Shown one piece after another: positions 1,891-25,114 of a stretch of DNA of 33,502 bases. The DNA comes from a virus. Position 1 is the stretch's first letter; the number at the start of each line of letters is the position of its first letter. Below the pieces are notes generated by a model. That model worked only from the letters and a program-made list of their open reading frames with translations. It was not told where the DNA came from and did not search any database. The stretch lies in IMG/VR virus record IMGVR_UViG_3300025769_000439, positions 1 through 33,502 of that record. The stretch is one strand, 5' to 3'. The position numbers and the translations under genes are program-made.

Positions 1891-2232
1891 ATGAGAAAAA
1901 TAACGAGGCGAATCATGAACGGATTTTCAAAGTTCTGGTGGTATGCTCCCGAATACTTTAGTCGTTGGAGACTATTTCCTAGAGCATTTATTACGATGTA
2001 TTTGTATCTATTGTATGAAGTTGTCACATGGTTTATGGCATTGGATGCTCCATCTATGGAACAAGCAGGTCTTGTATCTGTTATTGTTGGTGCAGGTGCT
2101 GCTTGGTTTGGTTTGTATGTAAATAGCACTAGCACGAAGTTCTCAGAAACAAGTTTTGAAAGTAAATTAGGTAGTGTTCGTCAAAATGGTGATCCAGATA
2201 GAAAGACTGTAATCGAAGAATACGAAAAATGA
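1891..2232 (+). CDS. Two-helix membrane protein, possibly holin-like
   Basis: The 113-aa product has a strongly basic amphipathic N-terminus (MRKITRRIMNGF). Two membrane segments follow (about 33-50, FITMYLYLLYEVVTWFMA, and 59-77, AGLVSVIVGAGAAWFGLYV), separated by a short acidic turn. A polar, charged C-terminal tail comes last. Size, two hydrophobic helices and a charged tail fit a class II holin layout, but many phage membrane proteins look alike and no lysin gene is adjacent. GAGG (1876-1879) is the nearest RBS. It ends 9 nt before the glycosyltransferase operon and could instead be an accessory of that operon, such as a membrane partner. Holin function is a guess. Confidence 0.6.
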   Translation: MRKITRRIMNGFSKFWWYAPEYFSRWRLFPRAFITMYLYLLYEVVTWFMALDAPSMEQAGLVSVIVGAGAAWFGLYVNSTSTKFSETSFESKLGSVRQNGDPDRKTVIEEYEK

Positions 2233-2241
2233 AAGTTTATT

Positions 2242-3024
2242 ATGAAGAGAATGATCTATCAAGTTTCCGTAGGGAAACCTTCTAAATTATACAAACATTG
2301 TATTGAGTCTGTGAAAAGATATTGTATAAAATTCGATATCGATCATATAGTACAGACAAAACCAATTCTAGTTATTCGACCAGATCCTTTTAATACAGGC
2401 AGAAGTCAGGAATGCGTTTCCCGACCTCTGCCTCTTCCTATTTACGAAAAAGAAAACGCATTCAACTATTTTGATCGTTATGACCAGATAGCAATCATTG
2501 ATGCTGATATTTTCATTCGTGATACGGCACCAGATATATTTGAAGCATTTGGTTCCGAAGCGAATTTTGGTGCTGTTGTAGAACGAGATATGCCAATCAC
2601 GAATCAGTATAAAGCGAAGATACTGAATTATTCTCAAATGCAATATGGAAGACTTCATCCCAAAGTAGACTTTGACCCAAATCATCTTGGTTATGAGTTT
2701 ATGAATATGGGTCTCATGCTGATGAATAAATCAATCGTAAAATATCTTCGCGGCCAGACACCAAAACAGTTTCTCGAAAGACCAGAGTTCAAGAATTTCA
2801 TTGATGGTGTTGGTACATGGAAATGGTCAACAGATCAAACACTACTGAACTGGTGGATTCGCAAAGAAAAAATGAAGATAAATAGAATGCATTGGAAATG
2901 GAATGGTCTGTACTCAGCAAATCGTAAAATTGAACATTGTCATTTTGTGCATTTCTTTCTAAAAGATAAATTGCCAAATCAAGGTGAGAATGTAGAACAG
3001 TTGATGAAGGATATAAATGCATGA
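2242..3024 (+). CDS. Glycosyltransferase, GT8-like fold with DAD metal motif
   Basis: First enzyme of the glycan operon, 260 aa. The N-terminal MIYQVSVGKPSKLYKHC..SVKRYC strand-helix is shared with two other genes of the operon. The nucleotide-sugar/Mn2+ site is IAIIDADIFIRD, with the DxD at D87-A88-D89. Later motifs (NMGLMLMN, then TDQTLLNWW) are the acceptor-side 'N.G' and 'DQ' signatures of GT-A retaining enzymes. Sugar and acceptor cannot be read. A second in-frame ATG lies at 2251 (giving MIYQVSVG) and aligns better with the starts of its paralogues. The gene shares its stop with the next start (ATGA). Confidence 0.8.
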   Translation: MKRMIYQVSVGKPSKLYKHCIESVKRYCIKFDIDHIVQTKPILVIRPDPFNTGRSQECVSRPLPLPIYEKENAFNYFDRYDQIAIIDADIFIRDTAPDIFEAFGSEANFGAVVERDMPITNQYKAKILNYSQMQYGRLHPKVDFDPNHLGYEFMNMGLMLMNKSIVKYLRGQTPKQFLERPEFKNFIDGVGTWKWSTDQTLLNWWIRKEKMKINRMHWKWNGLYSANRKIEHCHFVHFFLKDKLPNQGENVEQLMKDINA

Positions 3025-4373
3025 TATCTCTTGTTCTTTTTGATTTAGATGGTGTTCTCATTGACGCAAAAAAGATACATTATGAAGCACTTAATGAAGC
3101 TCTAGGCAAATATGCCATTACCGAAGAAGAACATGTGAATATATATGATGGAAGAAAAACAACTGAAAAACTGAATATGTTATCTGTTCGCAAAGGATTA
3201 CCAACAGAAGAACATCAACAAATATGGGAGAAGAAGCAAACCATTACAATGAAAAAACTCGGTGAGTTGGAACCCATTCCTGCAATAAACGAACTTTTTC
3301 AATATCTGGAAAATAATGGATATAAGATAGGTGTGTGTTCCAACTCTATACGAAGAACAGTTCTGACTGCACTATCGGCAGCAAATCTTATTCAGCATTG
3401 TAGTGTTGTTCTTTCAAACGAAGATGTAAAGAACTCAAAACCTCATCCAGAAATGTACTGGAAAGCAATGTCAATGATGAATGTTCTTCCCGAAAACACG
3501 CTTATTGTTGAAGATAGTCCTCCCGGTCTATTAGCAGCACAAAGATCAAAAGCGCATTATATTCGCGTAGAAAATCCATACGAAGTTTGTATAGATAGAA
3601 TAATTACTGAACTAAAGGGTGGTGAAATGAATAAAAAATGGAAAGACGATAATCTAAATGTGTTGATACCTATGGCGGGCGCTGGTTCTCGTTTTGAAAA
3701 AGCAGGTTATACTTTTCCCAAACCTCTTATTGAAGTGAATGGTAAACCAATGATCCAAGTTGTCGTAGAAAACATTGGTCTTGAAGCAAACTTTCATTTT
3801 GTCGTTCAAAAACAACACAGAGAAAAATACAATCTAGACACAATGCTCAATCTGATTGCTCCCAAATGTAAGATCATCGAAGTTGATGGTATTACAGAAG
3901 GAGCCGCTTGTACTGCTCTTCTCGCAAAAGAATATATCGAAAACGACAAACCACTATTCTTTGCGAACAGCGACCAGTGGGTAGACTGGAATCCTTTGGA
4001 ATTTATGTATCGTATGCAGGAGACAAATGCGGATGGGGGTATTGTCACCTTTAAGGCGACACATCCTAAATGGTCGTTTGTGAAAGTAGACGAACGGAAT
4101 ATCGCAACAGAAGTTGCTGAGAAGAATCCTATATCCAACAACGCAACAGTAGGATATTATTATTGGAAACGTGGATCAGATTTTGTAAAATATGCTGAAC
4201 AAATGATAGCAAAGAACATTCGCGTGAATAACGAATTTTATGTTTGTCCCGTATACAATCAAGCAATTCAAGACGGGAAAATCATAAGAATAGATGAGGC
4301 GAAAAGTATGTGGGGGCTAGGAACACCTGAAGATTTGGAACACTTCATCAAAAACAAGGTATCATATTCATGA
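3021..4373 (+). CDS. Fusion: HAD phosphatase/phosphoglucomutase-like domain + sugar nucleotidyltransferase
   Basis: The 450 aa form two enzymes in one chain. Residues 1-~200 are a HAD subfamily I domain: nucleophile motif FDLDGV (D8 and D10), CSNS as motif II (~S107), KPHPEMYW as motif III Lys, and VEDSPPGLLAA as motif IV. Its order resembles beta-phosphoglucomutase. Residues ~212-450 are an NTP_transferase: VLIPMAGAGSRF (GxGxR loop), then FPKPLIEVNGKPMI, then ANSDQWVDW as the metal-site Asp. Together they could convert a sugar phosphate and then activate it to an NDP-sugar for the neighbouring glycosyltransferases. An internal ATG at 3627 after GGGTGGTGAA could yield the second domain alone. 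ATGA overlaps join it to both neighbours. Confidence 0.85.
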   Translation: MISLVLFDLDGVLIDAKKIHYEALNEALGKYAITEEEHVNIYDGRKTTEKLNMLSVRKGLPTEEHQQIWEKKQTITMKKLGELEPIPAINELFQYLENNGYKIGVCSNSIRRTVLTALSAANLIQHCSVVLSNEDVKNSKPHPEMYWKAMSMMNVLPENTLIVEDSPPGLLAAQRSKAHYIRVENPYEVCIDRIITELKGGEMNKKWKDDNLNVLIPMAGAGSRFEKAGYTFPKPLIEVNGKPMIQVVVENIGLEANFHFVVQKQHREKYNLDTMLNLIAPKCKIIEVDGITEGAACTALLAKEYIENDKPLFFANSDQWVDWNPLEFMYRMQETNADGGIVTFKATHPKWSFVKVDERNIATEVAEKNPISNNATVGYYYWKRGSDFVKYAEQMIAKNIRVNNEFYVCPVYNQAIQDGKIIRIDEAKSMWGLGTPEDLEHFIKNKVSYS

Positions 4374-5107
4374 ATTTATCTCAATATCTAAAAATGCAAT
4401 TTAAACATTATGAAAGTGAAGCCAAGAGATGGAGTTTAAAAAATAGAAATCCTGTAGTCGGTGGTTATGATAAACACAATAAATGGTCTGACTATGATGA
4501 GTTTTTATTTAAAAATTTTGATACCAAAAATCTTATAGCATTAGATTATGGTACAGGCCCTGGAAGAAACATCATCAAATTCAATCACCGTTTTAAAAGA
4601 ATTGATGGTGTTGATATTGGTGAAAAAAATATTGAGAACGCCAAGATAAATCTAAAAAATGCAGATATCACAGAGAGTAATTTATATGTGTGTGACGGTA
4701 AAAGTACACCTGTTGAGAATGAGTCTTATGATGTTTGGTTCAGTGTGATATGTTTACAACATATTGCGTGTTATGATATTCGTTACTCCATTTTTGAAGA
4801 CGCTTATCGGGTACTCAAACCGAATGGTCATATTTGTTTTCAAATGGCCTTTGGTGGTCGAGATACGAGTAGTCATAACTTTAATGTGTATGCTAAGTCA
4901 CATGTAATCATGACTGCGGGTTATTATGATAATGACGTTAACGCCAAAACAACAAATGGTATGCATGATGTAAGTGTGACAGAAGACCGTCAGATTATTG
5001 ATGACCTAGAAAAGATTGGATTCACCGACATATTGATTGATCACAGGCCTACTGGTCCTGGTTGTAGTCACAAAGAATGGATATTTGTTCAAGGCACAAA
5101 AAAATGA
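4370..5107 (+). CDS. Class I SAM-dependent methyltransferase
   Basis: The 245 aa carry the SAM-binding motif I ALDYGTGPGRN (about residues 58-67), motif II acidic IDGVDIG, motif IV-like DVWFSVICLQHI, and the post-motif strand VLKPNGHICFQMAF. This is the usual Methyltransf_11/25 order. It is embedded between sugar-activation and glycosyltransferase genes with a 4-nt ATGA overlap to each. It most likely methylates a sugar or glycan, but small-molecule or protein targets cannot be excluded. Confidence 0.85.
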   Translation: MNLSQYLKMQFKHYESEAKRWSLKNRNPVVGGYDKHNKWSDYDEFLFKNFDTKNLIALDYGTGPGRNIIKFNHRFKRIDGVDIGEKNIENAKINLKNADITESNLYVCDGKSTPVENESYDVWFSVICLQHIACYDIRYSIFEDAYRVLKPNGHICFQMAFGGRDTSSHNFNVYAKSHVIMTAGYYDNDVNAKTTNGMHDVSVTEDRQIIDDLEKIGFTDILIDHRPTGPGCSHKEWIFVQGTKK

Positions 5108-5892
5108 AAGTGGCAGTTTTAATATCTGGGATTATGAAACCAAATCCAAAATTTCCTGAGTTGATGACTCGTATTATAGAAGTCAACAAGTCTATGTTTT
5201 CTGAGGCTGACTTTTATTATGCGACTTGGGATAATGAAAAGAATAGAAAACTATTCGATACATATTATCCAGAAGAAGAATGCCATTATTTTAATGAACC
5301 GAAAATTCATTATCATCCATACACAGATGTTCCAAAAGAATATCATCTATCAGAAAATTTCAAAAAAAAGATCAAACAATTTGGAAGTAAACCATGGTTT
5401 CGTGAATGGACTTCTCATCACACAAAACAGCATTTGATACATTGTTTTCTTCTTGACAAAATAGAAATGAAATATGATGTTATTGTGAGAATGCGATTTG
5501 ATAGTTTTATACATCGAAAGGCAAATTTTTTGCCTTATGTAGAAGACGCATATCAGACAGGTTACGCACATGGATTTGCAGTAACGAAAAGATCCAAGTT
5601 CAATGAGTTTTATGATTCGCCCGAAAGTGACAAACGCATGAAAGATTACATGATTGATCAACTTATAATACACAATGCTGCCAATATAGATACAAAAGAA
5701 GTATACAAGTTGCATGAAGAAAAGAGATTAAGAGCAGCAGAATTTGGATGGTATCAAGTTTTATCACAACCTTATGTTGGTCATAAAAATCATCACGGTT
5801 TTGTGAACTCATATCTTCAAGTAAATGCGGAACATATGATTGAAGAAGACAAAAAACCACTCGACATAAAATTTTTAGAAAAAAAGGATTAA
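5104..5892 (+). CDS. WavE-like glycosyltransferase
   Basis: Start chosen at ATG 5104, which overlaps the previous TGA (ATGA) as in most genes of this operon and begins MKVAVLISGIMK. An upstream in-frame ATG exists but would overlap the neighbour by 31 nt. The 262-aa product begins with a Rossmann-type VAVLISG strand. Its YDVIVRMRFDSF motif (about residues 125-135) is the R-x-R-x-D signature of WavE/LPS-core type glycosyltransferases. The Trp/His-rich middle (EWTSHHTKQHL) is also typical. It probably adds a sugar to a surface or virion glycan. Confidence 0.65.
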   Translation: MKVAVLISGIMKPNPKFPELMTRIIEVNKSMFSEADFYYATWDNEKNRKLFDTYYPEEECHYFNEPKIHYHPYTDVPKEYHLSENFKKKIKQFGSKPWFREWTSHHTKQHLIHCFLLDKIEMKYDVIVRMRFDSFIHRKANFLPYVEDAYQTGYAHGFAVTKRSKFNEFYDSPESDKRMKDYMIDQLIIHNAANIDTKEVYKLHEEKRLRAAEFGWYQVLSQPYVGHKNHHGFVNSYLQVNAEHMIEEDKKPLDIKFLEKKD

Positions 5893-5893
5893 T

Positions 5894-6592
5894 ATGATAT
5901 ATGATTGGAACGCAAAAATCTTTATACATATACCAAAAAATGGAGGGATGACAATTCGCAAATCTCCTCTTCTACAAAACAAGATTATTGCCTGTACTCC
6001 AGAACTACATGAATCGCCTGAATACACAAAAGGTCTTCATCAAAGAATGAAAGAAATTGGAGATCATCATGGGAATGAACACACACCTTGGAAACATATA
6101 AAACCTTCTTACAGAAATCATTATACAGCATTTGCGATTATTCGCAATCCATGGGATCGTGTGGTTTCTCGTTATTTCTTTGCGAAGAAAGTGATTGAAG
6201 TTGAAAAGAAAGAACCTGTTGGAAAACATCGTATCGATTCATTTGAACATTTCCTGTCGGAACGAGATTTGTGGTATAATCAACCATTCATGCATCACCG
6301 GGCAATTCGAGGATGGCAACCCGCATACGAATATGTGACAGACAACAAAGACACTATTCGGTGCGACATTCTTCGATTTGAGAATTACAATGATGATGTG
6401 TGTAAGTATTTCGAAATACCGAAAATGTCAAGAGCAAGAAATGTCACCGATTTGAACAAAGGTTCTTATCGTGATGTATATACACCAAAAACTATTCAGA
6501 TGGTAGCAGATTGGTACAAGATTGATATTGATACTTGGGGATACGATTTTGATACCGGACCGACAAAAAATTACTGGGCATTGGACAAGTGA
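5894..6592 (+). CDS. Carbohydrate sulfotransferase (PAPS-dependent, Sulfotransfer_2 type)
   Basis: The 232 aa open with IFIHIPKNGGMTIRK (P14-K15-N16-G17-G18), the 5'-phosphosulfate-binding loop of PAPS-dependent sulfotransferases (usual form PKTGG(T/S)). FAIIRNPWDRVVSRYFF (R84 to about S92) is the 3'-phosphate-binding motif. FENY later matches the family. Length and motif spacing fit the HNK-1/chondroitin-type carbohydrate sulfotransferases, so the product would transfer sulfate from PAPS to a sugar hydroxyl. Its RBS is AAGGA (5883-5887). Sulfotransferases are uncommon in phages, and the setting implies a sulfated phage-directed glycan. Confidence 0.85.
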   Translation: MIYDWNAKIFIHIPKNGGMTIRKSPLLQNKIIACTPELHESPEYTKGLHQRMKEIGDHHGNEHTPWKHIKPSYRNHYTAFAIIRNPWDRVVSRYFFAKKVIEVEKKEPVGKHRIDSFEHFLSERDLWYNQPFMHHRAIRGWQPAYEYVTDNKDTIRCDILRFENYNDDVCKYFEIPKMSRARNVTDLNKGSYRDVYTPKTIQMVADWYKIDIDTWGYDFDTGPTKNYWALDK

Positions 6593-7287
6593 AAAACATA
6601 CTACTACAACATTATAATGGCCAACTGTCCGATTTGGCAAAAGCGTCTATGGAAAACATGAAACAATATGCTTCATATTGTGGTGCTGAGTATAGATTAA
6701 TTACTGGAGAACCAGTCGGCGCTATTATGTCAATTTCCAACAAATCCCAATTGAAGAAAGTCAATGCTTGTCATAAAGTGCATATGTTGAATCCTGAGTT
6801 TGACGAATATGATGTGGTTGCGATGATTGATCCTGATATGTTTGTTAGAAGAGGATTGTCTAGGAATATCTTTGAAGACGAAACGGGTGTGGGTATTTGT
6901 TCCGATCATATTAGAGCGAATGCCTTTGCGAGATTTCGAAATGCTTTTCCGCAATATTCTTCAAAAATAAATGCCTTCTGGGGAGGTGCTATCTGGCGAC
7001 TTGATAGAGATATGAGAAAGAGACTTCGCAAACAGTGGAATGTGAAAGAAGTTATGCGAATCGGAAGTACAATATTCGTAGACGAAGGTATTATGCACAA
7101 TCTATCTCGAAAAGCAAATATTCCAGATTCTCCCGAATATATACTAGATCAAAAATGGTGTTGGTGTTCTTATTTACCAAAATCTAAAAACGCATATATG
7201 ATTCATATGAGAAAGACTGACTCAAAAGGAAATAAAGTCACGAAAGAACAATCACTCAAAAGATTGCAGAATGAAGGTATAGTATGA
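6589..7287 (+). CDS. Glycosyltransferase, GT8-like, DPD motif
   Basis: GTG start at 6589 in a GTGA overlap with the previous stop. The 232-aa product begins MKNILLQHYNG and shares the N-terminal layout of the 2242 and 7284 genes. The metal/nucleotide-sugar motif is VVAMIDPDMFVRRG (D81-P82-D83). The segment INAFWGGAIWRLDRDMRK corresponds to the acceptor-side 'N.G(G).(V/I)' region. VDEGIMHNLS matches the 'DE..l' catalytic segment. It is part of a paralogous set within the operon. Donor and acceptor are unknown. Confidence 0.75.
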   Translation: MKNILLQHYNGQLSDLAKASMENMKQYASYCGAEYRLITGEPVGAIMSISNKSQLKKVNACHKVHMLNPEFDEYDVVAMIDPDMFVRRGLSRNIFEDETGVGICSDHIRANAFARFRNAFPQYSSKINAFWGGAIWRLDRDMRKRLRKQWNVKEVMRIGSTIFVDEGIMHNLSRKANIPDSPEYILDQKWCWCSYLPKSKNAYMIHMRKTDSKGNKVTKEQSLKRLQNEGIV

Positions 7288-8087
7288 AAACATTGATATA
7301 TCAATACTGGGATGGACCACTAAAATCGGGCATTCGCGCAGGCAAAGCAGCGATGCGCGAATATGCGCATAGTATTGGAGCAGAATATCTTTTTGAACAT
7401 AATCCCAAATATTGTTCAGGACTTGGAAAATACACACCACATTACGGTCAGTTCAAAGTCGTTTATGAACCGGAGTTTGAGAAATATGATAAAGTTCTTT
7501 TTTGTGATACTGACATATTTCCAACAGATACAGTACTTCAATCTAAAGAAAATATATTTGAAGAATATTCTGGCGACATAGGAATCTGTACAGAACCACA
7601 TCAACCAGAATTGAGAAAACAAAATCCTAATCATCACATAGGATATAATGCTGATGAAAAATGGGCAAAAATTATCAAGACTGTTTATGCTGTTGATATG
7701 CCTAGAACAGAAAAAGGATTATTAAAGGTTTACAATTCCGGTGTAGTGTTGTATAATATGAAATCCGTAGATAAAATACGAAAGGGGTTTGTCAAGTTCA
7801 AGAGATATCAAGACCTGATAAATACAAATGGACTAAGTGCTTTTTATGGTTGTGATCAACCATATCTTCACGCTATGATGTTCAAGTCAAATCTTATTGT
7901 AGATGAAATGAATCAGAAATGGAATGCGTTTGTTCATTATCACGGTCAAGGAAATCCGAGGCCTGTTGTTGATTTGAGAACTCAGGACACCAATTTTGTT
8001 CATATTCAACTTTCTGGTGCAGATGATTTTGATACCGACAAACTATGGCGAATAACCAATTTACACAAAACAGAATGGAAACTATAA
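7284..8087 (+). CDS. Glycosyltransferase, GT8-like, DTD motif
   Basis: The 267 aa start at an ATGA overlap and begin MKTLIYQYWDGPLKSG. The DxD is in KVLFCDTDIFP (D75-T76-D77). VYNSGVVLYNMKS is the canonical 'N.GV.l' acceptor motif and FYGCDQPYLHAMM the 'DQ..' motif of GT8-like enzymes. The segment NQKWNAFVHYHGQ then FVHIQLSG matches their C-terminal His-containing metal-ligand region, so the site looks complete. It is probably a retaining transferase acting on the same glycan as its neighbours. Confidence 0.8.
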   Translation: MKTLIYQYWDGPLKSGIRAGKAAMREYAHSIGAEYLFEHNPKYCSGLGKYTPHYGQFKVVYEPEFEKYDKVLFCDTDIFPTDTVLQSKENIFEEYSGDIGICTEPHQPELRKQNPNHHIGYNADEKWAKIIKTVYAVDMPRTEKGLLKVYNSGVVLYNMKSVDKIRKGFVKFKRYQDLINTNGLSAFYGCDQPYLHAMMFKSNLIVDEMNQKWNAFVHYHGQGNPRPVVDLRTQDTNFVHIQLSGADDFDTDKLWRITNLHKTEWKL

Positions 8088-8650
8088 TGCTCACGACCGA
8101 TATGACACATACAAAAACTCTTCAGGAGTTTTATGACGATCTAAGAAAGCGACAAGAAGAATATCATGGCGAAGATTATTGCGCGGTTCACGATGAAATT
8201 GTTCGCTTGATGGAAAAATGCGAGACTTACAAAGAACTCGGAGTAAAACAAGGAACGACTCTTGCGGCAGTTCTTTTACAAAAACCAAAATCTGTTATTG
8301 GAATTGATAGATCACTCAAAGATTATAGTCCATGCAAGGCACTATTTGAAAAATATGCTACCGATAATGATATTGATTTCAAGGTCATTGAAGATGATTC
8401 GTGTTCGTTTAGAGCAACGGCGACAGATTGTGATCTTTTATTCATTGATACTTGGCATGTGTATTCACAATTAAAGAAAGAACTCAATGCACATTATTCT
8501 TTTGTTAATAAATATATCGTAATGCATGACACTCACTCAAAACCAGAACTCGGTAAAGCGATTGAAGAGTTTTTGAATTCTGGTAAGAAGTGGAGACTAT
8601 ATAAAGTGAACAATAAAAATGTTGGTTATACAGTATTGGAAAAAGAATGA
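8087..8650 (+). CDS. SAM-dependent methyltransferase (Methyltransf_24 / CmcI-like)
   Basis: Start chosen at ATG 8087, giving a TAATG overlap with the previous stop (187 aa). An upstream ATG at 8045 would overlap the neighbour by 43 nt. The motif YKELGVKQGTTLAAVLLQKP is a variant glycine motif I, followed by VIGIDRS (motif II acidic). DLLFIDTWHVYSQLKKEL and YIVMHDTHSKPELGKAI are the characteristic 'lifiDg.H.Y..v..Dl' and 'i..hDt' motifs of CmcI/rhamnosyl O-methyltransferase-like enzymes. In this operon a sugar O-methyltransferase is the likeliest role. Confidence 0.75.
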   Translation: MLTTDMTHTKTLQEFYDDLRKRQEEYHGEDYCAVHDEIVRLMEKCETYKELGVKQGTTLAAVLLQKPKSVIGIDRSLKDYSPCKALFEKYATDNDIDFKVIEDDSCSFRATATDCDLLFIDTWHVYSQLKKELNAHYSFVNKYIVMHDTHSKPELGKAIEEFLNSGKKWRLYKVNNKNVGYTVLEKE

Positions 8651-9219
8651 AAATTTATAAGTACAGAGATTACGACCATTATGTCGAAATGCAAACTGAA
8701 GCCAACAAGAAAAAAATTGATTGGCGTTATGTAAAACCCGAAACGGTAAAACGCATTGTAGACCATTTCCGAAAAAACTTTGATGGTGATCCAAAAGCGA
8801 TAATCTGTCATGGCACAAGAAATGGAGGAGAACAACAGTTCTTTCAGGGGCATTTTCCGAATGCTGAGATTATCGGTACTGAAATATCCGAAACTGCTGA
8901 ACAGTTTCCTATGACTGTTCAATGGGACTTTACAAAACAAAAAGATGAGTGGATCGGTAAACATGATATTGTTTATTCTAATTCATTTGATCATAGTATT
9001 GACCCCGAAGAAACTTTGCGAGTTTGGACAGAACAATTAACACCAAATGGCATTTTGTATATTGAATATTCAGAACAACAATCTGAATCTTCAGCATATG
9101 ATCCGCTTGATGCCACAAACAAAGAGGTGATAAAAATGATTCGTGATAAAGGTTTCAAAGTAGAAGTCGAACCTGGAAAGCGTAGCGGGCATTTGATCTT
9201 TATGTGTACCCAAGAATGA
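8647..9219 (+). CDS. SAM-dependent methyltransferase, class I
   Basis: The 190 aa start at an ATGA overlap. After a helical lead, AIICHGTRNGGEQQFF is the motif I loop, unusual in that GTRNGGE replaces the usual GxGxG. AEIIGTEIS follows as motif II and QWDFTKQKDEW with DIVYSNSFDHSIDPEETL as motifs III/IV (a Methyltransf_11-like 'vvs...lehi.dp'). LTPNGILYIEYSEQ completes the fold. This is the third methyltransferase of the operon, so the glycan may carry several methyl groups. The target is unknown. Confidence 0.75.
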   Translation: MKIYKYRDYDHYVEMQTEANKKKIDWRYVKPETVKRIVDHFRKNFDGDPKAIICHGTRNGGEQQFFQGHFPNAEIIGTEISETAEQFPMTVQWDFTKQKDEWIGKHDIVYSNSFDHSIDPEETLRVWTEQLTPNGILYIEYSEQQSESSAYDPLDATNKEVIKMIRDKGFKVEVEPGKRSGHLIFMCTQE

Positions 9220-9228
9220 GGTCGTATT

Positions 9229-9933
9229 ATGGATGGATATGTAATATATGTTGAAAACAATATACATTCCGAACAGGGCGTTTCTTATTTAAAAGAATCG
9301 ATAAAGCATTTTGCGCCTTGGATTAATCTTCATAAACTCAAAGCGATCACAGATAAATCCGAAATCGATCAGTTCATGAAGAAAGAGAACATCCATTGGA
9401 ATTATCCATGGTCTGGTTCTCAACAAGATTTTGTCACAGGATTGAAAAAGTCTGCTTATCCGACAAAAAATCCATATTCAAGAATTTCTTGCGCAATCAT
9501 GCATTATTCTTTGTGGAAAAAAACTGCTATAGAAAACAAACCAATATTCGTTTTTGAACATGATGCGATTTTTATTAAAGACATACCAGAAAACTTTACA
9601 GAAGGAAATAAAGCGCCTATTATAGGTTTGAACTCCCCGTTCGGCGCAACACGAATACCCACAGCATATAATAATTTTGTTCAAACATATAATGGTGATA
9701 AGGAAATAATTCCCGCACCAAGAATCGATCATTCATATATTCCACAAGGTCTTGCTGGCAACTCGGCATATTACATAACATCAAATGGTGGCAGTATTAT
9801 GTTGAATTTAGCCAAAGAACACGGCCTTTGGCCTAATGATGCTTTGATGTGTAGACAACTTGTTCCCGGGTTATCTGTGACTAAAACATACTACACAAAA
9901 GTTCAGGGCATTCAATCAACTACGAGTTTATAA
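9229..9933 (+). CDS. Glycosyltransferase family 25-like (LPS-type)
   Basis: The gene has its own RBS (GAGG 9218-9221, with the previous stop TGA inside it) and is 234 aa. The GT25 signature is present: SRISCAIMHYSLWKK (the 'C..SH..LW' element, with MH for SH) and then PIFVFEHDAIFIKDIP, the 'l.lEDDa' motif as E110-H111-D112. NSAYYITSNGGSIML is the later 'aY.is..gA..l' element. GT25 enzymes add galactose or glucose in LPS and, in eukaryotes and giant viruses, to collagen hydroxylysine. It is followed directly by a second GT25-like gene (TAATG). Confidence 0.75.
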   Translation: MDGYVIYVENNIHSEQGVSYLKESIKHFAPWINLHKLKAITDKSEIDQFMKKENIHWNYPWSGSQQDFVTGLKKSAYPTKNPYSRISCAIMHYSLWKKTAIENKPIFVFEHDAIFIKDIPENFTEGNKAPIIGLNSPFGATRIPTAYNNFVQTYNGDKEIIPAPRIDHSYIPQGLAGNSAYYITSNGGSIMLNLAKEHGLWPNDALMCRQLVPGLSVTKTYYTKVQGIQSTTSL

Positions 9934-10577
9934 TGAAAGCATATGTAATCACAATAATGGATAATCCTTTGTCAGTTTCTGCCGCAGAACGATGTATAAA
10001 ATCTGCAAAGAAATTTGGTCTTGATGTAAAGATGTGGAAAGCATTTACACCAAAAGACAATCCAAGAAAAATACTAACAGACCACGGGATCAATCCCAAG
10101 GGTTTTGAAGAAGTATATTCAAGACTTGAGAATTGTATGGCTGCATTTCTATCACACTATTCTTTGTGGCAAGAATCCTTTACAAAAGACGAGAACATTC
10201 TTATTCTTGAACATGACGCTGTGGTTAAATCAGAAATACCAAAAATGAACTTCTTTAGAGGATGTATTTCATTCGGCAAACCATCTTATGGCAAATTCAA
10301 TATTCCAACACAAATGGGTCAAAACAAACTGCAATCAAAGCAGTACTTTCCGGGCGCACACGCATATTTGATTTCGCCAAGAAAAGCAAAGATCGTAATT
10401 GAAAAAGCGAAGACAGAGGCCGCTCCAACGGATGTATTTTTTCATAATGACAGATTTGATTTTCTTGAAGAGTGGTATCCTTGGCCTGTAGAGGCAGTCG
10501 ATTCTTTTACTACGATACAGAAACGAGAAGGGTGCCTTGCAAAACACAACTTTGGAGAAACTTACGAGATTGTATAA
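9933..10577 (+). CDS. Glycosyltransferase family 25-like
   Basis: The 214 aa overlap the previous stop as TAATG. They begin MKAYVITIMDNPLSVSAAERC, the typical GT25 start (Y.I.l..s..R...). NCMAAFLSHYSLWQE is the conserved 'gc..SH..lw' motif and NILILEHDAVVKSEIP the acidic E-H-D site (E93-H94-D95). FPGAHAYLISPRKAKIVI is the 'g..aYlis..gA..l' element. It is closer to canonical GT25 than its upstream neighbour, and the two are probably an old duplication acting on successive sugars. Confidence 0.8.
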   Translation: MKAYVITIMDNPLSVSAAERCIKSAKKFGLDVKMWKAFTPKDNPRKILTDHGINPKGFEEVYSRLENCMAAFLSHYSLWQESFTKDENILILEHDAVVKSEIPKMNFFRGCISFGKPSYGKFNIPTQMGQNKLQSKQYFPGAHAYLISPRKAKIVIEKAKTEAAPTDVFFHNDRFDFLEEWYPWPVEAVDSFTTIQKREGCLAKHNFGETYEIV

Positions 10578-11206
10578 TGAAAAAAATTTTTATCACAGGT
10601 TGCGACTCCAATACTCAATGGCAACTGAAATGGTTCGTAGAAAACTTTCAAAAACATAATCCGAACGCAAAACTTTTGATATGGGATTTTGGTATGGATA
10701 ATAATCCATATCCGAAAATATCACAAAAACTAAAGTCTCAGGACCCAGGATGGTTCAAAAAACCAAAAGCAATGTTTGAAGCATCTAAAATGTCAGACTA
10801 TGTTTGTTGGCTTGACACAGATTGTGAAGTGAGAGACAACATAGAAGACATATTCGATTATGTTGAACCGAATAAACTTGCTATGGTAGAAGATGTTCCA
10901 TGGTCACGCCGAAGAGGAGAAAAATGGCATAACTCTGGTGTTGTAGCATTTCAAGGCACTCCAAAGATATTGAATGATTGGGTTTCTGCTACAGTATTTA
11001 CAAAAGAAGTCGGAGATCAAGAAGTACTTCATTCGATTGTTCGAGATGGTATGAAAAGGATGATAAATATCACTGACCTCCCCAGAAAATATAACACTCT
11101 TCGTCTTGATATTCAAGATAAGACGGGTCCTAAAACTATCAAAGTTATGCATTGGACAGGGCGCCGGGGTAAGGAAGAAATAAAGAAACTTATGAAAGAG
11201 AAGTAA
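10577..11206 (+). CDS. Glycosyltransferase, GT8-like, DTD motif
   Basis: Start chosen at ATG 10577, giving the operon-typical TAATG overlap and 209 aa starting MKKIFITGCDSNTQWQLKWF. An upstream in-frame ATG would sit 105 nt inside the neighbour. DYVCWLDTDCEVRDNIEDIF holds the DxD (D80-T81-D82). WHNSGVVAFQG is the 'N.GV' motif and VGDQEVLHSIV the 'DQ' motif. MHWTGRRGKEEI at the C-terminus supplies a His like the third metal ligand of this fold. Sugar specificity is unknown. Confidence 0.75.
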   Translation: MKKIFITGCDSNTQWQLKWFVENFQKHNPNAKLLIWDFGMDNNPYPKISQKLKSQDPGWFKKPKAMFEASKMSDYVCWLDTDCEVRDNIEDIFDYVEPNKLAMVEDVPWSRRRGEKWHNSGVVAFQGTPKILNDWVSATVFTKEVGDQEVLHSIVRDGMKRMINITDLPRKYNTLRLDIQDKTGPKTIKVMHWTGRRGKEEIKKLMKEK

Positions 11207-11817
11207 TGAAACCAAGAATAGTTCATATTATCGGTAATGGCGATAACGCTCATATCTACAACACCGAACAAAGAAAAGGTATCAAACTTACTTGTAATCT
11301 ACCACCATTTTCTGTACCTGACGCTTATGCTACTTGTATTGTCGATTTCAAGATGTGTAAAGCGATAACTGAAGGTTCTGTTATACCTCCTGGTGAATGG
11401 GTCATGGGTATGAGACCAAAAATGTGGTGCGACAACCATCCACAATTTTATATGAACCATGCTTCACGAATCAAAGGATTCTTTACAGAAAAACCAGAGT
11501 ATGTGGACAACTACACAGATTTTAATTGTGGTCACATGGCCACATACTATGCGATAAAGAAACTCAAAGGTAATGAAATACATATGTACGGATTTGACTC
11601 CATCTTTGATATGAATCTTAGATCGTGTTCAGATTTCTATCTCCAGTCGGATCGTGAGAAGACAAACACATTCCGATTGAGCAACAACTGGCGACCCATC
11701 TGGCAAAGCATGTTCCAAGAGTTCCCGAACGTTAAGTTCTATCTGTATCACAACCACGATAATTCGCGAATCGAATTGCCGACCAACGTAGAGGTAGTGG
11801 TAAAAAAGAAAAAATAA
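11206..11817 (+). CDS. GT42/DUF115-like putative glycosyltransferase, last gene of the glycan operon
   Basis: The 203 aa start in a TAATG overlap. The N-terminus IVHIIGNGDNAHIY, a following 'cN.pp' strand, and a distal GHMATYYAIKKLKGNEIHMYGFDSIFD helix-strand form a pattern. It resembles bacterial sialyltransferases of GT42 and the DUF115/MptE-like group (GNG.S start, G..A...A...G...I...G.D end). Overall similarity is weak, so a sugar-transfer role is inferred from fold pattern and position. No clear terminator follows; there is only a weak AT-rich hairpin at 11816-11834. Confidence 0.5.
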   Translation: MKPRIVHIIGNGDNAHIYNTEQRKGIKLTCNLPPFSVPDAYATCIVDFKMCKAITEGSVIPPGEWVMGMRPKMWCDNHPQFYMNHASRIKGFFTEKPEYVDNYTDFNCGHMATYYAIKKLKGNEIHMYGFDSIFDMNLRSCSDFYLQSDREKTNTFRLSNNWRPIWQSMFQEFPNVKFYLYHNHDNSRIELPTNVEVVVKKKK

Positions 11818-12802: not shown

Positions 12803-12999
12803 AAACTAGGAATCAAGTCTGGGATCAAGTCTGGGATCAAGTCGGGGATCAAGTCTGGGATCAAGTCTGGGATCAAGTCCGGTATCAAGTCTGGGATCAA
12901 GTCTTGGGTCAAGTCGAGGATCAAGTCGAGGATCAAGTCTGGTATCAAATCGAGGATCAAGTCTTGGATCAAGTCTTGGATCAATGGTATGAAAACTAA
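12799..12999 (+). CDS. Q-V-x-x tetrapeptide repeat protein, copy 1
   Basis: The 66 aa begin MKTRNQV and consist almost entirely of the four-residue unit Q-V-W-D, with variants GD, RY, LG, ED, WY and LD in the two variable places. There are about 15 units, closing with QWYEN. The regular 4-residue period with Gln-Val constant and Trp/Asp alternating suggests an extended beta or solenoid-like structure with aligned Gln and Val faces. Function is unknown. I recall similar QVW(D/N) repeat proteins in bacteria and phages. The start overlaps the previous stop (ATGA). The tail contains the start codon of copy 2. Confidence 0.65.
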   Translation: MKTRNQVWDQVWDQVGDQVWDQVWDQVRYQVWDQVLGQVEDQVEDQVWYQIEDQVLDQVLDQWYEN

Positions 13000-13140
13000 T
13001 AATCAAGTCAGGGATCAAGTCAGTATTCAAGTCTGGGATCAAGGCTGGGGTCAAGTCGGTATTCAAGTCTGGGATCAAGTCAGTAATCAAGTCCGGGGTC
13101 AAGTCTGGGTTCAAGTCTGGGTTCAAGTCTGGGATCAATG
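12808..13140 (+). repeat. Degenerate 12-nt tandem repeat (consensus GGATCAAGTCTG)
   Basis: About 27 head-to-tail units of a 12-nt sequence close to TGGGATCAAGTC span the two Q-V genes. Variation is concentrated in the six bases that encode the variable residue pair, while TCAAGT is nearly invariant. The period is a multiple of three, so unit gain or loss keeps the reading frame. The antisense strand reads as an apparent Asp-Pro/Leu repeat, which is only its shadow. Confidence 0.9.
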
Positions 13141-19506: not shown

Positions 19507-20505
19507 TTAGCACCCATCATCGAACCAGAATGTAAAACTATCTGAATCACTATCTATATTCGTTTGTATCCATAAATATTTATTCAATTCTGTTGTCGGT
19601 GCCGAATCTTGTATGAATAAGGGAACCGAAGAATCACCACCACCGATTGCATTATCTATAAGTTGTACTTCATATTTATCAATGTCTTTATTATATATCA
19701 GTATAGCACGATCTGGTATATTCTCTTTTCGTGTACGAACAACATCAGCATTGTCCATCAAATTATAAGAACCGCCACCGCCTAATGTACTTAATGACTT
19801 ATTCACATTTGCTTGCCATGTCTTGAAGTTCTTTTCTACTTCTTCAATGTATGGCTGCACATTTGGCAATGCTGCATCTTTGCCAGCAGGACCTTCCGGC
19901 CCTTGTGGTCCTACTGGTCCCGTATCACCTTTATCGCCTCTTTTTCCCTTTGGTCCCATGGGACCGGCTGATCCTTCAGGACCTCTTGGACCAATATCAC
20001 CTTTTTCGCCTCGGTCACCTTTAGGTCCAGTTTCACCAGTATCTCCCTTTTTTCCTTGGATACCTGGTTCGCCTTGTTCACCTTTTTCTCCTTGAAACCC
20101 CTTATCGCCCTTATCGCCTTTAGGTCCTATCGGCCCTTGATAACCACGAGGTCCTCTTTCTCCTTGGGAACCATCAAGACCTCTTTCGCCTTGCTCACCT
20201 TTATCGCCTTGAACGCCTTGAACGCCTTGAGGACCAATCTCGCCCTGTTCACCAATCAATCCTTGCGGACCTACTGGTCCCGTATCACCTTTTTCACCTT
20301 TCTCCCCCTTATCACCTTTAGGACCTTCTACAATAGTTGTTTGTTCTTCAAGCAATCTATTATCAATAGTCTCTATGTCTTCCATCAAAGCAGATATCTT
20401 TTTCAAGATACCCAACTTTAGTTCTTTCAGTTCCTTTCGGACCTCTTCTGTGTTTTCATCACTATAGAGTAAGGCAGTAGCGAGTAATTTATTTTCATGA
20501 GACAT
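19507..20505 (-). CDS. Collagen-like fibre protein with 50 Gly-X-Y triplets
   Basis: The 332 aa form three parts. Residues 1-60 are a helical, charged N-terminus ([27 protein letters not shown]) suited to trimerisation. Residues 61-210 are 50 uninterrupted Gly-X-Y triplets rich in GPK, GDK, GEK and GPQ, dominated by charged pairs that stabilise a triple helix without hydroxyproline. Residues ~211-332 are a C-terminal cap ending [21 protein letters not shown], a motif often found at the ends of phage collagen-like or head-fibre proteins. It starts 1 nt after gp20's stop, so it rides on the portal transcript. Likely a thin virion fibre. Confidence 0.85.
19876..20325 (-). repeat. Collagen Gly-X-Y repeat tract
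   Basis: 450 nt encoding 50 perfect Gly-X-Y triplets. At DNA level it is a 9-nt-like quasi-repeat (GGTCCT/AAAGGT/GATAAAGG types read on the minus strand), prone to slippage and recombination that keep the frame. Two GPVGPQG-type blocks near the ends are almost identical (around 19905-19930 and 20265-20290). Confidence 0.9.
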
Positions 20506-24685: not shown

Positions 24686-25114
24686 ATGAACTATGTAGAA
24701 ATCATGAATGGCGCCCAATGGATGAAAATCCTTACTGAGCGTGTCATTTATCATTGCATCGAAGAACTAATGCCTCGGATGCGGACTCTCGACATTACGG
24801 TTGAATTCAGTTCCGACATGGGCGAAACGGCCGGTGCTGTTCTTGAAATCGACAAGCGCATGTTTGAAATCGAACTGTCGGAGTTTCTGGGTTTTGATGA
24901 ACTGATCAAAACTGTTTGTCACGAAATGGTTCACGTCAAGCAGTATGCACGTGGCGAAATGAAGGCCGAAAGTATCGGTGCCGTTCTGTGGAGGAACGAA
25001 GAAGTTGCTTCTGATCCCGCAAACTACTATGAGTTTCCTTGGGAAGTCGAAGCATACGAGATGGAAGTGATTCTTTTCGAATCTTTTTTGAAAAAATATC
25101 CCGGATGCTCTTGA
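24686..25114 (+). CDS. Zincin-type metallopeptidase-like early protein (HExxH)
   Basis: The 142-aa product carries VCHEMVHVKQYARGE, an HExxH zinc-binding and catalytic motif (H79, E80, H83). It is followed ~37 residues later by FPWEVEAYEMEV, whose Glu (E120 or E122) is in the right place for the third ligand of a gluzincin/SprT-like minimal domain. The N-terminal strand (LDITVEFSSDM) supports that fold. The leader GTAAGAGAGAGAATCAT supplies the RBS. Its target is unknown; phage-encoded early zincins could act on host regulators. Its stop TGA is part of the -35 box of promoter copy 3. Confidence 0.7.
   Translation: MNYVEIMNGAQWMKILTERVIYHCIEELMPRMRTLDITVEFSSDMGETAGAVLEIDKRMFEIELSEFLGFDELIKTVCHEMVHVKQYARGEMKAESIGAVLWRNEEVASDPANYYEFPWEVEAYEMEVILFESFLKKYPGCS

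Follow-up and report, generated by a model that had tools for sequence, protein, structure and literature searches.

A thirteen-gene carbohydrate-building operon with a conserved frame and an exchangeable middle in T4-like phages

Gene sets of the lipopolysaccharide (LPS) type have been described in T4-like marine phages, and an alteration of the host surface that acts against other phages has already been proposed for them. The pelagimyophages contain regions rich in GT8 glycosyltransferase genes, for which a surface change against coinfection was suggested (PMC7029224), and phage P-SSM2 carries LPS-type genes in clusters, again with a proposed change of the host surface (PMC2984593). Chloroviruses, on the other hand, glycosylate their major capsid protein using transferases of their own (PMC7826918, PMC9614988). 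Here we describe a cluster of thirteen genes (g01 to g13) in the IMG/VR virus record IMGVR_UViG_3300025769_000439, a T4-like stretch of 33,502 nucleotides that is known only from environmental sequence and is called the window below. The cluster adds to the gene sets already known, and its transferase genes, grouped with genes for sugar activation, make it a member of the phage-borne LPS/glycan gene clusters of the P-SSM2 and pelagimyophage kind.

Like the window, the pelagimyophages are T4-like marine phages, and they encode several transferases of the GT8 type alongside further genes related to LPS (PMC7029224). However, their genes lie mostly in the host recognition cluster, between VrlC and gp14, or are dispersed two or three together, whereas the window holds a single 13-gene operon with a conserved frame, which relatives carry upstream of gp32 and which here stands between gp32 and gp23. 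P-SSM2 (PMC2984593) is also T4-like with many clustered LPS-type genes, but it has 24 of them in two clusters and a cyanobacterial host; this comparison was made without gene-by-gene matching, and no P-SSM2 record was present among the matches listed for g02, g11 or g13 (for g02, the best 40 of 66). The gene psbA was looked for in four near-complete relatives and not found, which gives no sign of a cyanobacterial host. The Synechococcus phages S-8S55, S-CAM9, S-PRM1 and B23 share a fusion of a HAD domain and a nucleotidylyltransferase with the window (54-56% identity), located beside glycosyltransferase genes, but in S-8S55 tblastn recognised none of the remaining cluster genes. Phage C48C1, on which we found no publication, has a homologue of g13 (43%), and Pelagibacter phage HTVC008M has a g12-like gene (36%) in a glycan/methyltransferase/NodU region, but both are without the 13-gene frame. 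The chlorovirus PBCV-1 resembles the window in encoding soluble GT-A transferases and methyltransferases, and its capsid transferase ranked third to fourth in a Foldseek search with the model of g04, a likeness of fold only. Unlike the window, PBCV-1 is a eukaryotic virus with a known acceptor, the major capsid protein, and no sequence relationship between the two was shown. In the open-access literature we found no earlier account of this frame, of its confinement to phages or of the exchange of its middle genes.

All 13 open reading frames (ORFs) of the operon were found in the window at positions 2242-11817, every one of them intact. After three starts had been revised, 10 of the 12 junctions were overlaps of 1 or 4 bases, the remaining two being gaps of 1 and 9 bases, in line with an earlier note on this DNA that had described thirteen plus-strand genes joined by short overlaps. 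The start of g04 was moved from 5077 to 5104, which creates an ATGA overlap with g03 and where the Met is invariant in 31 sequences. The starts of g08 (from 8045 to 8087) and g12 (from 10472 to 10577; median length of homologues 229 aa) were revised to TAATG overlaps.

Table 1. Genes of the cluster and the gene preceding it, in window coordinates.
Feature	Coordinates	Strand	Evidence or remark
Small hydrophobic protein directly 5' of g01, perhaps co-transcribed	1891..2232	+	Homologue in Phage C48C1
g01, DxD glycosyltransferase, GT8-like	2242..3024	+	Sub-threshold PF01501, conserved DxD
g02, HAD phosphatase/mutase-type domain fused to sugar-phosphate nucleotidylyltransferase	3021..4373	+	HAD_2, NTP_transferase
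g03, SAM-dependent methyltransferase	4370..5107	+	Methyltransf_11
g04, GT-A fold transferase	5104..5892	+	AlphaFold2 model, fold matches
g05, sulfotransferase	5894..6592	+	PF03567, phrog_3347
g06, DxD glycosyltransferase without named family	6589..7287	+	Invariant DxD
g07, DxD glycosyltransferase, GT8-like	7284..8087	+	Sub-threshold PF01501, invariant DxD
g08, probable methyltransferase	8087..8650	+	Weak Methyltransf_24
g09, probable methyltransferase	8647..9219	+	Weak Methyltransf_31, alignment of 12
g10, GT25 glycosyltransferase	9229..9933	+	PF01755
g11, GT25 glycosyltransferase	9933..10577	+	PF01755
g12, DxD glycosyltransferase, glycogenin/GT8-like	10577..11206	+	Profile against PDB glycogenin, invariant DxD
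g13, GT42/DUF115-superfamily transferase	11206..11817	+	AlphaFold2 model, CstII match

Family matches, motifs and fold models agreed with the count of enzyme classes in the earlier note, and profile and structure searches supported an enzyme class for most genes, in keeping with the carbohydrate-building role expected there. The HAD-nucleotidyltransferase fusion was confirmed, since both domains of g02 scored above their curated cut-offs (HAD_2 114.6 bits, NTP_transferase 40.5) with the DxD, GxGxR and PKP motifs present; the nearest PDB structures were 4evw for the C-terminal half and beta-phosphoglucomutase-type enzymes for the HAD half. The two GT25-like genes proposed earlier also exceeded the PF01755 (Glyco_transf_25) cut-off of 24, with 33.3 bits for g10 and 45.6 bits for g11, while a PDB match of g11 (E 0.015) was judged to be due to chance. 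The sulfotransferase, g05, was equally well placed (Sulfotransfer_2, PF03567, 37 bits against a cut-off of 22); it matched phrog_3347, a galactose-3-O-sulfotransferase (E 5e-11), and its N-terminal PKxGG and RNPW motifs are largely conserved in 6 sequences. The cluster probably encodes three methyltransferases, as proposed: g03 scored above the curated cut-off (Methyltransf_11, 58.1 bits), and the matches of g08 (Methyltransf_24, E 0.002) and g09 (Methyltransf_31, E 0.001) were weak and below it.

Four genes had been read as DxD GT8-like enzymes. The DxD held, being 100% conserved in g01 (D87 and D89; 41 sequences) and invariant in g06 (D81 and D83; 30 sequences, with an alignment of 16 made), g07 (D75 and D77; 26 sequences) and g12 (D115 and D117, numbered from 10472; 28 sequences). 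The exact GT8 labels could not be established, as g01 (16.5 bits) and g07 (14.7 bits) failed to reach the PF01501 cut-off of 24.3 and g06 matched no family; g12 reached glycogenin in the PDB via a profile only (E 0.003-0.005). Ten cluster proteins were tested against the NCBIfam equivalogs, and none scored above an equivalog's own cut-off. PDB sequence searches with g04, g05, g06 and g13 gave no meaningful match, the single-sequence matches of g13 being judged chance. A hydrophobic stretch of the membrane-segment type was not predicted in any of the 13 proteins.

We modelled g04 and g13 with AlphaFold2 and compared the models by Foldseek and VIA. The g04 model (pLDDT 90) showed a GT-A/nucleotidyltransferase fold, with a best Foldseek E of 3e-6, 255 matches at E<=0.001 and a VIA Z of 12.7 (rmsd 3.7, 189 aligned). 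Residues R138, R140, D142 and H199 (numbered from 5077) are 100% conserved in 53 sequences. The label WavE-like, given to this gene earlier, found no support in the sequence, as no Pfam WavE match was found up to E 1 and the assignment extends to the GT-A fold only. For g13 (pLDDT 90), the GT42 sialyltransferases CstII/CstI topped the VIA list (Z 10.5, rmsd 4.3, 172 aligned), and the GNG, CN, CGH and GFD motifs are invariant. The model fits the GT42/DUF115 superfamily named in the earlier note, but an archaeal HPPK was tied (Z 9.8) and Foldseek alone gave no significant match. Taken together, eight genes of the cluster probably encode glycosyltransferases, of which four are DxD/GT8-like, two belong to GT25, and one each is assigned a GT-A and a GT42 fold. 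Their product may be short, capped and anionic, as had been supposed, and it is just the sulfotransferase and the GT42-like fold that point this way.

To place the cluster among viruses, IMG/VR was searched with the g02 protein. Relatives of the fusion were present in 405 viral stretches, and the 80 best matches among them were retrieved, including the near-identical contig L002. In these 80 loci, g11 was found in 44, g01 in 40, g13 in 33 and g12 in 29; the sulfotransferase occurred in 7, and g03 in only 6. Of the 79 loci other than the window's own, 29 have a cluster that runs from g01 or g02 through to g13, with the GT8-like gene and the fusion first and the GT25, GT25, GT8-like and GT42-like genes last, not all being called everywhere. 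The order of this frame is thus conserved in other phages, and the middle of the cluster varies between the 29 loci. Representatives of the ORFs left unassigned there gave matches to epimerase, methyltransferase, radical SAM, sulfotransferase, PIG-L deacetylase, hexapeptide transferase and cytidylyltransferase families, among others. Contrary to what had been claimed, the combination of genes is not unusually complete for its kind, because relatives hold the same frame together with similar or larger gene sets. No match was obtained when the nucleotide sequence of the cluster was compared with 50,697 phage records. Among T4-like phages the cluster is accessory.

Between related clusters, dN/dS was 0.01-0.24 wherever dS was measurable. 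Twelve genes could be tested, g03 in one pair only and g05 not, and these 12 are under purifying selection. A comparison of contigs L003 and L058 gave a dS of 0.2-0.5 for g01-g07 and g09 and of 0.85-2.3 for g08 and g10-g13, a mosaic which suggests that parts of the cluster have been exchanged between phages.

The g13 profile matched only five contigs (L120-L124) in 84,980 prokaryote species genomes, in a scan that uses two degenerate peptide patterns and that more distant cellular relatives could escape. All five come from metagenome-assembled genomes (MAGs) or bins, and the phyla concerned are unrelated. In four, gp32 or other T4-like genes adjoin the cluster, while the fifth ends too early there to tell; because of these flanks, the contigs look like misbinned phage DNA, which public MAGs thus appear to hold. 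Within the genomes searched, g13 is restricted to phage or phage-like contigs.

What is the cluster for? We infer all targets, whether host cell or virion, from the gene content, and lean towards the host surface. At about even odds (a probability of roughly 0.5), the cluster would encode a cytoplasmic assembly line for a glycan of the lipooligosaccharide outer-core type, built by the phage's enzymes on the host lipid A-core. Lipooligosaccharide outer-core enzymes occur in GT8, GT25 and GT42, and the host lipid A-core is therefore our first choice of acceptor. Neither the window nor any of six relatives gave a match to Bac_transf (PF02397) or to Wzx-type Polysacc_synt (PF01943), the Wzy polymerase not being searched as such. 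As no lipid-carrier initiator or flippase was found, the acceptor would already be in the cytoplasm, and on the same result the cluster does not fit a Wzx-dependent capsule or O-antigen locus.

In the proposed pathway, the g02 fusion would turn a sugar phosphate into a nucleotide-activated sugar. The soluble GT8-like, GT-A, GT25 and GT42-like transferases would then add several sugars to a cytoplasmic acceptor, most likely nascent lipid A-core, and the methyltransferases and the sulfotransferase would modify these sugars, with the host supplying PAPS as sulfate donor. Host LPS export could carry the altered glycan to the surface, where it may remove or mask receptors of competing phages and keep progeny off debris. 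Since the middle of the cluster is swapped between phages, lineages would make variants on a common frame.

Several points weigh against this assignment. Transferases that are soluble could act on virion proteins just as well, a suitable host LPS is presumed, and the window covers just 33.5 kb of the genome. In addition, a canonical late-type promoter lies 5' of the unit in contigs L010-L012, whereas the exclusion of competitors would be expected early. The exact motif, TATAAATA, is found upstream of several structural genes. In 12 of 39 loci the 1 kb preceding g01 contains it on the sense strand, and in none on the reverse strand. Both in the window (position 1767) and in most close relatives, however, the motif is part of a coding ORF whose DIN segment is conserved. 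Its nearness to g01 therefore says little, and carries little weight for timing, outside L010-L012.

In L010, L011, L026 and L003, g01 is preceded by a gene for a small hydrophobic protein, either immediately or with one small gene in between. This protein differs from the one at this place in the window (Table 1), has an EF-hand-like DxDGDG segment in relatives and could possibly be holin-like.

The strongest alternative, though an unlikely one in our estimate, is that the cluster glycosylates the virion, that is the capsid, a decoration protein or the fibres, with an O-methylated, sulfated glycan, as in the chloroviruses. The apparent solubility of every enzyme and the late-type promoter in L010-L012 are consistent with this, and PBCV-1 provides a precedent (PMC7826918, PMC9614988). 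The window also encodes a collagen-like fibre with 50 consecutive G-X-Y triplets (19507-20505, minus strand, between gp20 and gp21), and GT25 includes collagen galactosyltransferases. By a strict test, however, a similar fibre was present in the relatives G016 and G019 and in none of G002, G007 and HTVC008M; G002 and G007 bear the cluster, and G019 is without its 3' quartet. As strict runs and cluster fail to co-occur, glycosylation of the fibre by the GT25 pair was rejected as a general explanation. In relatives, moreover, the cluster lies near replication genes and far from the structural block, and its accessory nature also argues against a role in the virion. Somewhat less probable again is the fuller version of this idea, in which a phage-restricted modular pathway would coat T4-like virions with such a glycan and produce serotype-like diversity through swaps of the middle genes.

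We regard as improbable a glycan on some other host target, such as a capsule, S-layer, pilus or other surface protein, made by the host and then modified by the phage. Maf flagellin transferases belong to the GT42/DUF115 superfamily, as g13 may, but no phage gene indicates such a target and the initiator and flippase were missing, as described above. Modification of phage DNA appears very improbable. DNA glucosylation by the T4 glucosyltransferases makes T4-like phages the classical case; however, five cluster-bearing relatives gave no match to the thymidylate synthase family (PF00303, hydroxymethylase-type), which was seen only in G019; the window's own genome is incomplete. Cyanomyoviruses are without sign of modified bases (PMC2984593), and eight transferases plus sulfation would be excessive for this purpose.

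In the window, gp32 is at the left end, and to the right of the cluster the minus strand carries gp23, gp22, gp21, the collagen-like fibre, gp20, gp19, gp18, gp17, gp15 and gp14. The closest named relatives of gp23 are from Phage C48C1 (64% identity) and HTVC008M (61%). In G002, G007 and G016, three near-complete relatives with the whole cluster, it lies upstream of gp32, near PhoH, RNaseH or an exonuclease, and roughly 70-85 kb from gp23 measured along the contig. Although none of these relatives has its cluster placed as in the window, with gp32 on one side and an inverted gp23 block on the other, host DNA, a decayed island or an assembly chimera is hardly credible as an explanation, given the synteny in many phage contigs, the purifying selection, the intact motifs and contig L002, which crosses both the gp32-cluster and cluster-gp23 junctions at 99.94% identity over 13,973 bp (though it may not be an independent sample) and so makes a simple chimera unlikely. 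The cluster is a carbohydrate-building operon within a T4-like phage genome, as the earlier note held.

Three further features of the window were recorded. Directly past the gp32 stop (380-515), two hairpins and a T-run with a folding z-score of -1.8 probably form a terminator; no Rfam match was found for this region. A 12-bp tandem repeat, ATCAAGTCTGGG, is present in 27 copies at 12812-13138, between the cluster and gp23, and gives xDQV tetrapeptide repeats in small plus-strand ORFs. A SprT-like metallopeptidase with an HEMVH motif (24686-25114, plus strand; PF10263, E 2e-5, just under the cut-off) lies on the opposite strand within the structural module.

Glycan clusters of marine T4-like phages have mostly been reported as loose collections of auxiliary genes, and what sulfotransferases do in phage genomes has been described as unclear (PMC10580990). 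The cluster described here gives the phage sulfotransferase a plausible pathway context. If the virion-coating pathway were true, it would be a bacterial-virus counterpart to chlorovirus capsid glycosylation. Because this is a syntenic family that shows purifying selection and whose fixed frame and exchangeable middle can be traced through dozens of environmental contigs, the question of host surface or virion becomes testable on a few genes.

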